A stretch of 64,000 nucleotides of DNA from Herbaspirillum sp. RTI4. Its GTDB lineage: Bacteria; Pseudomonadota; Gammaproteobacteria; Burkholderiales; Burkholderiaceae_D. The position numbers and the translations under genes were made by a program. The notes beneath the pieces are model-generated. The model saw only the letters and a program-made list of their open reading frames with translations, ran no database searches and was not told the DNA's origin. Positions 18,200 through 22,186 of the stretch are shown here, in pieces. How positions within the stretch are numbered: position 1 is the first letter of the stretch; each line of letters begins with the position of its first letter. The DNA is taken from the NCBI RefSeq assembly GCF_034313965.1, contig NZ_JAVIWQ010000002.1, forward strand, positions 248,001 to 312,000. Direction: 5' to 3'.

Positions 18200-20251
18200 T
18201 TATATATCGACCGGATCGACCTCTACCGACCACTTGACGCGGCTTTTCATTTGCCGCAAGGCCGGTAGCCATTGCTTCAGAAAAGCCTGCAAGGCAGGGC
18301 GGGAGACGCATTCAATCAATAATTGCGCACGTTCCTGGTTGGCAACACGCACCATGGTCATTGGAATCGGGTCATGAATCGTGATGTCCGGTGCATTCAG
18401 GCACTCTGCGGCTTGTTGCAGGAATTGCAGTGCGGTCTCCAGCTCCTTTGCCTCGGCACGCAACAGGGCCTGATAAATAAACGGTGGCATGGCAGCCTGT
18501 TGGCGCTCCTCCAGCAAGGCATTGGCAAAGCCGTCGTAGTCGTAAGCGCCCAGCGCCGCAAACAGCGGGTGCTGGGGATAGCGCGTTTGTATCAGGACTT
18601 GCCCGGGGTTACCATCCGTCTTTTGTGCAGCACGACCGGCGCGACCAGCGACCTGCATCAGCTGCGCAAACAGGCGTTCGCTGGCGCGGTAGTCGTGCGA
18701 AAACAAGGCGGTGTCGGGATTGAGGATGCCGACCAGCGTCAGGTTTTTAAAATCATGTCCTTTCGACACCATCTGGGTACCGATCAGGATGTCGACGTCG
18801 CCACCATGCACGCTATCGAAAGCGGCTTGAGCGCTGCCTTTGCGCCGCGTTGAGTCGGCATCGATGCGCAAAATGCGGGCTTCCGGGAATTGCGCTTGCA
18901 CATGCTCTTCGATGCGCTGCGTGCCACGTCCAAGCGGCTGCAAATCGACATTGCCACAGGTGGGACAGGATCTCGGGATGCGCAGCTCCAGGCTGCAATG
19001 GTGGCAACGCAAGCGGTGTTCGGGTTTGTGCAGCACCATCATGGCGGTACAACGCGTGCAATTGCTGATCCAGCCGCAGGCGTCGCACGACAGTACTGGC
19101 GCATATCCGCGCCGGTTCAGAAACAACAGCGATTGTTCTCCGCGCTCCAGTCGCAGTCGTAGTGCCGCTGCGAGAGTCGAGGTCAGGCCGCCACCGCCTT
19201 TATCGCGCTCCATGTCGATCAAGCCGACTTTGGGCAATACGGCGTCTGCCACCGCCCTCTGACGCAACACTAGTTTGCGATAGCGTCCCGATTGCGCATG
19301 CTGCCAGGTTTCCAGCGAAGGTGTGGCCGATCCCAGCACTACCGGTATGCCTAGCTGATGGGCGCGCCATACAGCAAGATCGCGTGCTGAATAGCGCAAG
19401 CCTTCCTGCTGCTTGTAGGAGGGGTCATGTTCTTCGTCGATGACGATCATTTTGAGGTGCGGCAGGGAGGACAGTACCGCCAGTCGCGTGCCTAGAACGA
19501 TGCGCGCCTGACCGGTATGTGCCGCCAGCCAGTTGCGCATTCGTTCGCCCTCCGCCAACCCGCTATGCAGACTCACTACGGCCACGCCAGGAAAGCGCTG
19601 CCTGACGCTAGCTTCAAGCTGCGGTGTCAGGTTGATTTCCGGTATCAGGATTAACACTTGTGCTGCCGCGCCATCATCCCGCGCCAGGATGTGAGCGGCG
19701 GTTTGCAGATACACCTCGGTCTTGCCGCTTCCGGTGACACCATGCAGCAAGATCGGGGCAAACCCGCTTGCGCCGGCAATCGTATCCACGGCAATCTGCT
19801 GCTCACTATTTAACAGCGGCATGGCAACCGGCACTGGATCGTGTAGCGGGGCGATTTTGGCTTGTTTTTTCAGTGCGCTGTTTAAGGCGACGCTGGTCAG
19901 TGCCCGCAGATTCTTGGGCAGCGAAGGAAGTGCCACCTCGCCCAGCGGACGCTGATAGTAGTCGGCGGCAAAACGGCACAAGTCCAGCCATTCGGCTCCC
20001 AAGGGTGGCACTTGCTGCCGGATCGCAATGACATCTTTCAATTTATCATCAGGCAAATCACTCTGGGCCTGAATGGCGACAATCACCCCGGCGACAGTGC
20101 GCCGCCCAAACGGAACCAGCACAATCTGGCCGACCATGGGCAATGCCGCGCCCGGTTCGTTCCGCCACCGGTAATCGAACAGCATGTCAAGCGGTGTATC
20201 GAGGGCAATTTGGAGGATGCGAGGTTCCACGAACTTAATGTGCTTCCTCAA
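18200..20251 (-). CDS. priA: Primosomal replication restart helicase PriA
   Basis: 683 residues, close to the family average. The N-terminal DNA-binding domain is followed by a superfamily 2 helicase core with Walker A GVTGSGKT near residue 172 and the DEEH box in IDEEHDPSYKQ. Paired Cys motifs for zinc binding (CDACGWISNCTRC, CHHC, CPTC) come next, then the second helicase lobe. PriA reloads the replisome at stalled forks. Its gene lies directly beside the DnaA-box region, within 20 bases of it. Confidence 0.96.
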   Translation of the reverse strand: MRKHIKFVEPRILQIALDTPLDMLFDYRWRNEPGAALPMVGQIVLVPFGRRTVAGVIVAIQAQSDLPDDKLKDVIAIRQQVPPLGAEWLDLCRFAADYYQRPLGEVALPSLPKNLRALTSVALNSALKKQAKIAPLHDPVPVAMPLLNSEQQIAVDTIAGASGFAPILLHGVTGSGKTEVYLQTAAHILARDDGAAAQVLILIPEINLTPQLEASVRQRFPGVAVVSLHSGLAEGERMRNWLAAHTGQARIVLGTRLAVLSSLPHLKMIVIDEEHDPSYKQQEGLRYSARDLAVWRAHQLGIPVVLGSATPSLETWQHAQSGRYRKLVLRQRAVADAVLPKVGLIDMERDKGGGGLTSTLAAALRLRLERGEQSLLFLNRRGYAPVLSCDACGWISNCTRCTAMMVLHKPEHRLRCHHCSLELRIPRSCPTCGNVDLQPLGRGTQRIEEHVQAQFPEARILRIDADSTRRKGSAQAAFDSVHGGDVDILIGTQMVSKGHDFKNLTLVGILNPDTALFSHDYRASERLFAQLMQVAGRAGRAAQKTDGNPGQVLIQTRYPQHPLFAALGAYDYDGFANALLEERQQAAMPPFIYQALLRAEAKELETALQFLQQAAECLNAPDITIHDPIPMTMVRVANQERAQLLIECVSRPALQAFLKQWLPALRQMKSRVKWSVEVDPVDI

Positions 20252-20267
20252 AAGTTAAGCTAACTAT

Positions 20268-20497
20268 CGGTTTCATAAGCCCTTTTGGGTCTATCCACAG
20301 TTATTGTGGATAACTTTGTGGATAACTGGGGCTTGACAGCGCTTATGTCAGTAACGGCGCGGGTTTCGACAAAATGCCCAATTCAAATGCAAAAAAATTA
20401 TTATTTAAAATCAATGACTTACAAAATCGATTCATCTAACGAAAATAATTTTTCAATATTTTATTTTTGCTGCGATGCAGATGGAATTTGTGCATAA
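20268..20497. repeat. DnaA-box module, copy A
   Basis: The order is CGGTTTCATAAG (20268-20279), CTATCCACA (20291), TGTGGATAA (20305), TGTGGATAA (20317), an AT-rich stretch with TTAAAATCA, then TGTGCATAA (20489). The first three box starts are 14 and 12 bases apart. Copy B repeats this order 363 bases to the right. Confidence 0.75.
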
Positions 20498-20630
20498 GTC
20501 GGTGGGGGAAGCCAAAATGTGTCAAGCATTTTCCTTAAATTTCTGCTTTTATGCCGCTCTCTTGGGACAAGCAATTCTTGTAGTCCCTGGTAATCACTTA
20601 AGGTAATACATTAGAAAATTAGCTAAGTCC

Positions 20631-20863
20631 CGGTTTCATAAGGCATTTTTAAACTATCCACAAAACCTGTTGATAACTTTGTGAATAAGTCCCTTCCAAT
20701 CTCCTGCAAAGCTAGCATCCACGCCATTTTTGATGTTTTTCTTCAAACCAGACAAAAAATTAATCCCATTAAAATCAGTAACTTATAAATAATTGCGCCA
20801 GACGAATCTTATTTATTCAAAAATAGTGATATCCCTATTTCAGCACCAACACATTGTGCATAA
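20631..20863. repeat. DnaA-box module, copy B
   Basis: The order is CGGTTTCATAAG (20631-20642), CTATCCACA (20654), TGTTGATAA (20668), TGTGAATAA (20680), an AT-rich stretch with TTAAAATCA, then TGTGCATAA (20855). The first element and three boxes are each offset exactly 363 bases from copy A, and the last box is offset 366. Sequence between the boxes has diverged more than the boxes themselves. Confidence 0.75.
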
Positions 20864-20927
20864 GTAAACATGACTAATTATCGAGTTCAGCCCGGCGCAC
20901 GGGATTTATTACGATGCGCTGGGCCGC

Positions 20928-22006
20928 TTACTTACGCAATTCACGACTGATTTCATGCACTGCCGTTGTCATGATGCTAACGGCCTCTGGCGGCGTGAAC
21001 TGGGAAATGCCATGCCCCAGATTGAAGATATGTCCTGCTCCGTCTGCCGGTGTGCCGAACGCTTCTAGCACCTTACGTACTTCTTTGCGGATTTGCTCAG
21101 GCCCGGCAAACAGGACGCTAGGATCGAGATTCCCTTGCAAGGCAACCCGGTCACCCACTTTACGGCGCGCATCGGACAAGTTGACCGTCCAGTCCAGACC
21201 TACTGCGTCGGCGCCGATTGACGCAATCTGCTCCAACCACAGACCCCCCCCTTGGTGAACACGATAGAAGGAATACGCTGGCCGTCTTTTTCCTTCTTTA
21301 ATTGGCTGACTACCTGTTCCATGTAGCGCAGGGAAAACTCCTGGTACACACCGTCAGCCAAAGCGCCACCCCAGGTATCAAAAATCATCACGGCCTGAGC
21401 GCCGGCATCAATTTGCGCATTCAAATAAGCGGCTACCGCATCTGCATTGACCTTCAGGATGTGATGCATCAGGTCGGGTCGGCTGTACAACATGCTTTTG
21501 ACCGTACGGAAATCATCCGAGCCACCACCTTCGACCATGTAACAAGCCAAGGTCCAGGGACTGCCGGAGAATCCGATTAATGGCACTCGCCCGTCCAGCG
21601 TCATCCTGATCTGCGTTACTGCATCGAAAACGTAGCGTAACTGCTCCAGGTCGGGTGCGCGCAAAGCGCGTACGGCGTCCTCGTCACGTAAGGGCTTTGC
21701 AAATTTAGGCCCTTCTCCGTCGACGAAATAGAGCTCCAATCCCATTGCGTCGGGCACAGTCAGAATATCGGAAAATAAAATAGCCGCATCGAGTGGATAT
21801 CGATCGAGCGGCTGGAGAGTCACCTCTGTCGCGTAATCAGAGTTTTTCGCCAGGCCGAGGAATGATCCGGCTCGCGTACGAGTCGCTCGATATTCAGGCA
21901 GGTAACGCCCAGCCTGGCGCATCAGCCATAGTGGGGTGTAGTCTGTAGGCTGACGCAGGAGCGCGCGCAGAAATGTATCGTTCTTCAGTGGGGCGAATTG
22001 CGGCAT
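20928..22006 (-). pseudogene. hemE: Uroporphyrinogen decarboxylase, frameshifted at a homopolymer
   Basis: Two overlapping frames together make a complete HemE of about 359 residues. The N-terminal part (from [19 protein letters not shown] at 22006) has the catalytic [15 protein letters not shown] and [15 protein letters not shown] regions. The C-terminal part ([38 protein letters not shown]) ends at 20928. The shift occurs in a run of eight G on the coding strand (21251-21244); nine would restore [11 protein letters not shown]. HemE is needed for heme, so a sequencing or assembly error is the likeliest explanation. The gene converts uroporphyrinogen III to coproporphyrinogen III. It lies between the DnaA-box region and a CoA-binding protein. 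Confidence 0.9.
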
Positions 22007-22186
22007 AGGAATAATAGGGCTAAGGCAAAACGCTATTATCTCATTCAAAGACAGCGGGGCCTTTGGTACTTCAACCTGGACACCACTCTTTAGCCATTCC
22101 GAACTGATTTCGGTTACGTACGATTGATGACGGTGGCGTCAACATAGGGTATTTACTGCCAACTCAATGTTGCTGAATTAAGCATG

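Follow-up and report, generated by a model that had tools for sequence, protein, structure and literature searches.

Two DnaA-box modules between hemE and priA

The window, by which we mean the whole 64-kb stretch of DNA analysed here, covers C2:248,001-312,000 of the 3.92-Mb contig C2 of Herbaspirillum sp. RTI4, whose genome measures 3.99 Mb. Two DnaA-box modules, 363 bp apart, occupy the gap between hemE and priA. Their elements and neighbours are arranged as follows, with distances inside a module counted from the start of its core.

18200..20251, minus strand: priA, the left neighbour, listed start at 20251 (NCBIfam NF004067, 967.5 bits against a cut-off of 763)
20268..20279, plus strand: CGGTTTCATAAG of module 1 (1.33 bits per position over 30 genus loci)
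20291..20325, plus strand: core of module 1, with box I at 20291-20299 (plus), box II at 20305-20313 (minus) and box III at 20317-20325 (minus), gaps of 5 and 3 bp
20409..20421, plus strand: IHF consensus of module 1, AATCAATGACTTA, at +118, no mismatches to WATCARNNNNTTR
20489..20497, minus strand: box IV of module 1, TTATGCACA, at +198
20631..20642, plus strand: CGGTTTCATAAG of module 2 (1.52 bits per position over 30 genus loci)
20654..20688, plus strand: core of module 2, with box I at 20654-20662 (plus), box II at 20668-20676 (minus) and box III at 20680-20688 (minus), gaps of 5 and 3 bp
20773..20785, plus strand: IHF consensus of module 2, AATCAGTAACTTA, at +119, a perfect match to WATCARNNNNTTR
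20855..20863, minus strand: box IV of module 2, TTATGCACA, at +201
20928..22048, minus strand: hemE, the right neighbour, gene end at 20928 (TIGR01464 matches both of its pieces)

The initial annotation had placed CGGTTTCATAAG and four boxes per module at these coordinates, with an offset of 363 bp that becomes 366 bp at the last element, and had counted five exact TTATNCACA boxes (20305, 20317, 20489, 20680 and 20855) and three with one mismatch (20291, 20654 and 20668); all of this is borne out. The gap is also non-coding as described, in that no ORF of at least 80 aa, the lower limit of the list used, starts or ends within 20264-20913. What that description lacked is the IHF consensus in each module; ten perfect matches to WATCARNNNNTTR occur in the 64-kb window, one per module among them. 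Each core consists of box I on the plus strand, 5 bp, an inverted box II on the minus strand, 3 bp and box III on the minus strand. The TTGACA that follows box III was weighed as a -35 element, and by eye no fitting -10 was found.

Five perfect TTATNCACA boxes fall within 573 bp of the gap, compared with 68 in the whole 3.99-Mb genome, and a Poisson estimate for at least five perfect boxes in a 573-bp span at a given place is 7e-13. Across the 64-kb window boxes with at most one mismatch show no excess (29 seen against 32.6 expected), and it is therefore the clustering itself that is unusual.

In this assembly hemE is found in two frames, as ORFs 20928-21236 and 21200-22048. Because HemE lies in an open frame of at least 362 aa in all but one of the 34 other genus matches, the split is either a mistake in the assembly or a break that arose recently. 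A C8 run is present at 21244-21251, near the frame split.

Conservation within the genus and position relative to the probable oriC

A HemE search gave matches in all 34 genus genomes (35 matches), from which 30 loci, our own included, were analysed and four genomes were left out. Both modules are present in all 30 loci at a separation of 363-377 bp. The weakest core among them has five mismatches, while box I and box II of module 1 are invariant (2.0 bits). The IHF consensus and box IV are rigidly placed. The module 1 IHF consensus is perfect at +118/119 in all 30 loci and that of module 2 lies at +119/120 in all 30 (28 perfect, two with one mismatch), so that every one of the 60 modules has the consensus within +118 to +120, 58 times without mismatch. 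Box IV follows at +197 to +203 with at most one mismatch, again in all 60. In the genus alignment (n=30 loci) the 122 element positions carry 1.71 bits per position and the 554 others 0.78, which upholds the earlier view that the boxes are more conserved than the DNA between them, and CGGTTTCATAAG itself is conserved only moderately. The least credible account of the gap is that it holds boxes clustered by chance, or the remnant of a repeat, with no function: beyond the general frequency of TTATNCACA nothing was found in its favour, and it is opposed by the retention of both modules at 30 of 30 genus loci and by the recurrence of the composite in other families.

All seven single-contig genus genomes carry the module pair at hemE-priA, and each has one to four further triplets (at most three mismatches) elsewhere. 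These amount to 17 places, 16 of them with a locus, of which two lie beside xseA and 14 have neither a PriA nor an XseA match. A triplet near TTATCCACANNNNNTGTGAACAAGCCTGTTGATAA recurs at ~2.0-2.2 Mb in four genus genomes (L193, L228, L229 and L232), where neither priA nor xseA adjoins it.

A dense box cluster far from dnaA risks being mistaken for an origin, and the initial annotation proposed that the gap might be oriC or one half of a split origin. It correctly noted that dnaA is not adjacent; 284 kb separate the hemE-priA cluster from the gene, whose end is at C2:552.6 kb. Interpolated cumulative GC skew, sampled over 1.07 Mb, bottoms out at 542.5 kb and peaks at ~2.61 Mb, and a contiguous profile of 228-660 kb is lowest at 543 kb within a shallow trough of ~519-609 kb. 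At 268 kb, the position of the hemE-priA gap, the cumulative skew is still falling without a turn, and the gap thus does not lie at the GC-skew minimum. A second box cluster, composed of two near-repeats, is located at C2:559.4-559.9 kb, ~5 kb from the start of dnaA, and each near-repeat has a DnaA-trio-like run beside a box together with an AT-rich stretch. This dnaA-side cluster is likely to be oriC. A weak triplet with three mismatches is also found within it. The cluster (C2:559306-560100) lies beyond a gene that by eye is AsmA-like.

The two clusters share DnaA boxes, AT-rich DNA and a two-fold repeat, and the lowest GC content per 100 bp is 20 in the hemE-priA gap against 23 at the dnaA-side cluster, features that would suit a chromosomal, half-split or secondary origin in the gap. 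However, the skew turn and the trio-like runs are found at the dnaA-side cluster and neither at the gap; runs of at least four TAN trios number two at the former and none in the latter. On skew and on the absence of DnaA-trio-like runs the gap was rejected as oriC, and we consider an origin of any of these kinds very improbable there. By the terms of the initial annotation, its proposal would fall if the skew minimum lay elsewhere and close relatives also lacked the boxes. The minimum does lie elsewhere, but the boxes are not lost, both modules being kept at 30 of 30 genus loci. Its further suggestion of a DnaA-titrating or regulatory site captured the right class, and more narrowly the geometry is suggestive of DnaA reactivation (DARS).

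Likeness to DARS and datA, and recurrence beyond the genus

DARS1 and DARS2 of E. coli are described as sharing an equal core spacing with box I opposite to boxes II and III, and a head-to-head contact between box I and box II protomers is presented as prominent in DARS (PMC5742627). Both hemE-priA modules have this core, with gaps of 5 and 3 bp and orientations identical to those of DARS1 and DARS2 of E. coli MG1655. Box pairs 2-3 bp apart are reported to be generally preferred DnaA targets (PMC11317965), so boxes II and III by themselves do not identify a DARS. Each module also places a predicted IHF site at a fixed distance (+118 to +120), as expected of the DARS2 type, and the function of E. 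coli DARS2 is reported to depend on IHF distance and helical phase (PMC4245941).

The resemblance to DARS2, in the rppH-mutH region, extends to an IHF-type site ~110 bp from the core start and a further box ~210 bp on. DARS2 differs in that its IHF-type sites lie at +93/+109 rather than at +118/119, its further box (+211) has the opposite orientation to box IV, and it needs Fis. A Fis pattern found no sites in the gap, nor in E. coli DARS2, and is uninformative. A second triplet, intact here at +363, is degenerate in DARS2 with six mismatches at +316 (L133, positions 1136 and 1452), which raises the possibility that DARS2 itself may be descended from a tandem pair. DARS1, in the bioD-uvrB gap, has the same core triplet with identical gaps but is a single copy, its IHF-type site has two mismatches at +121, and uvrB-side loci show no box IV; among its uvrB-side relatives the IHF-type site lies at +121/122 in five of five loci. 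In 8 kb of the E. coli priA region there is no triplet with at most five mismatches and no perfect box.

We consider it probable, from these arrangements of sites, that the hemE-priA gap holds two tandem, IHF-assisted DARS-type elements that would convert ADP-DnaA to ATP-DnaA. The main rival, which we regard as unlikely though deserving of weight, is a datA-like site at which boxes around an IHF bend hydrolyse ATP-DnaA (DDAH) or titrate DnaA. In E. coli datA, DnaA boxes likewise surround an IHF site (PMC5742627) and datA too lies some distance from oriC; core, IHF consensus and box IV form such an arrangement in both modules here. The gap and the dnaA-side cluster are 7.4% of the chromosome apart, a value close to the separation of datA and oriC in E. 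coli (~10%, where DARS2 is at ~21% and DARS1 at ~33%, as calculated from coordinates). However, the head-to-head I/II triplet is a DARS hallmark with no counterpart in datA, where the best match to the triplet has six mismatches, and plain titration would have no need of a core-IHF-box IV spacing held to within 1-2 bp.

A second address was found beside xseA. In our own genome two further triplets, 172 bp apart, lie between xseA, which is above its profile cut-off, and an ExbB/TolQ-type gene, which is below the cut-offs (C2:1,318.8-1,319.0 kb; 19.4% of chromosome length away from the dnaA-side cluster). Six other family genomes carry 2-8 triplets (at most four mismatches) in the xseA-side gap, some overlapping on opposite strands, and such arrays resemble DnaA sinks, which lends some support to titration. 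In our own family a reverse IHF site at +51/52 accompanies many xseA-side triplets, and xseA-side triplets of several other families have the +119 to +121 IHF form. The largest arrays are as follows: eight triplets at L220 4265-5752, where several copies are near-identical and ~246 bp apart, and seven at L218 5049-6711, many triplets of both having a reverse IHF consensus at +52. Family triplet clusters were entertained as origins and dropped, their flanks being xseA.

One family genome carries dispersed TTATGCCCGNNNNNTGTGAAYAACNTTGTGCATAA-type triplets, of which two are identical (L222 4416 and 5565; G065 C1:1924151, 2254751 and 3000973), and these look like a repeat family. Separately, a 24-bp exact copy of the module 1 IHF-site stretch (window 20404-20427) is present at C1:33967-33990 (L002 1501-1524), on a 37-kb contig just past a gene that by eye is ParB-like.

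Searches of overlapping genome sets recovered the triplet beyond the genus. With at most three mismatches it is present in 137 of 145 family genomes (two hits in all for a reversed-pattern control), and with at most two in 109 of 200 genomes from the order, 125 of 185 from the class and 93 of 200 from the phylum, where the control gave 0, 1 and 1, respectively. Two genomes in the class search, G405 and G545, have six and seven dispersed triplets, above most others there.

The rest of the composite recurs with the core. At 25 family and order loci chosen for a triplet together with a PriA or HemE match, the composite is seen in 33 of 34 triplet rows, as an IHF-type site (at most one mismatch) at +118 to +121 plus a minus-strand box IV at +178 to +202, the one exception being a weak match that overlaps and is on the opposite strand. 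A HemE search of named genomes kept, among the matches listed, 80 loci with a best identity of 65%, the nearest relatives not being among them. Sixteen of these contain a triplet (at most four mismatches; none in reversed sequences), Ralstonia, Rhodoferax, Hydrogenophaga, Acidovorax and Variovorax included, and 17 of their 18 rows have both an IHF-type site and box IV, with L130 having neither. Among class loci, 27 of 29 have a centred triplet (two off-centre loci left out); 23 of the 27 carry box IV and 21 carry the IHF-type site, compared with 3.1% and 1.4%, respectively, of 580 random placements. The phylum search added 17 loci, and a plus-strand IHF-type site lies at +117 to +122 in 11 of them, comprising five of five uvrB-side loci, two of three beside mutH and rppH, one at priA, one at xseA and two unassigned; at the uvrB-side and mutH/rppH-side loci concerned the site falls at +118 to +122.

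The neighbours of these loci bear on a further alternative, that the gap is a regulatory site through which DnaA controls priA transcription. Module 1 begins upstream of priA, 40 bp from its listed start, and PriA is a frequent neighbour, matching at 11 of the 29 new class loci listed (XseA at none) and at six of the 27 new order loci listed (XseA at 17, neither at four). The composite layout is nevertheless unchanged beside xseA in other families, and the distance to priA varies, being for example ~20-30 bp in L214 and L219 and 470 bp in L221. We judge control of priA to be improbable, more so than a datA-like role.

A candidate reactivation site for DnaA

The DARS-type reading draws on the core geometry, the placement of the IHF consensus and box IV, their rigid conservation, a location remote from the turn of the skew, and the presence of genes for DnaA, Hda and IHF-beta, the latter two above curated profile cut-offs. 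Our own DnaA keeps L290, R399, T435, R285, R281, R334 and D269 of the DARS-relevant residues. R227 is replaced by His; in the account of residue roles given for E. coli, an alanine mutant of R227 is severely impaired at DARS2 (PMC4245941). This substitution weighs against the DARS reading, as do the six of 17 new phylum loci that have no plus-strand IHF-type site at +117 to +122, and the deviating IHF-type sites of E. coli DARS1 and DARS2 and box orientation of DARS2. The triplet alone is also unspecific, as seen from the weak copy at the probable oriC and the one to four extra copies per genus genome.

We infer occupancy of the modules by DnaA and IHF, release of ADP and the direction of the reaction, as reactivation instead of hydrolysis or titration. 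DnaA, probably as ADP-DnaA, would bind the three core boxes with the box I and box II protomers head to head and the box III protomer behind. IHF would then bend the DNA 118-120 bp past the core start, returning box IV, ~80 bp further on, to the core complex. The strained oligomer may drop its ADP, and the freed DnaA would take up ATP, leaving more initiation-competent ATP-DnaA for oriC ~290 kb away. The two tandem units may cooperate. A spacing tolerance of 1-2 bp is as predicted for a machine that needs a set IHF distance and helical phase. On this model the duplicated cluster probably tunes the timing of replication and is not its start site.

More tentatively, and with rather less confidence than we attach to the function of the gap itself, the core, the IHF site ~120 bp on and the inverted box IV ~200 bp on may constitute one ancient composite machine of the beta- and gammaproteobacteria, located mostly upstream of priA or beside xseA. 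DARS1 and DARS2 of E. coli could then be relocated and partly reduced descendants, and tandem duplication in our own genus might have set two reactivation complexes 363-377 bp apart that may act together.

Relatives of DARS outside E. coli are already known and not new. DARS-like sequences are described as conserved in many proteobacteria (PMC10380432) and as occurring in beta- or gammaproteobacteria close to E. coli (PMC5742627), conservation of the DARS2 core is reported among E. coli-related gammaproteobacteria (PMC4245941), and a DARS-like sequence is reported in V. cholerae (PMC6090056). Titles and abstract openings in the open-access literature yielded no DnaA sites at hemE-priA or xseA, and the hemE-priA address, the tandem form and the core-IHF-box IV rule were likewise not found in those parts of that literature. 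It is the hemE-priA address, the duplication and the rigid layout that appear to be new, with membership of the DARS class assigned on architecture.

The DARS step of the DnaA ATP/ADP cycle is, in the sources cited, one worked out in E. coli. The hemE-priA locus provides exact sites for deletion or footprinting, and the distances and helical phase of core, IHF site and box IV amount to a geometry that is testable as a mechanism. The occurrence of a near-invariant tandem layout at two recurrent addresses suggests that DNA-driven reactivation of DnaA may be general in these bacteria.
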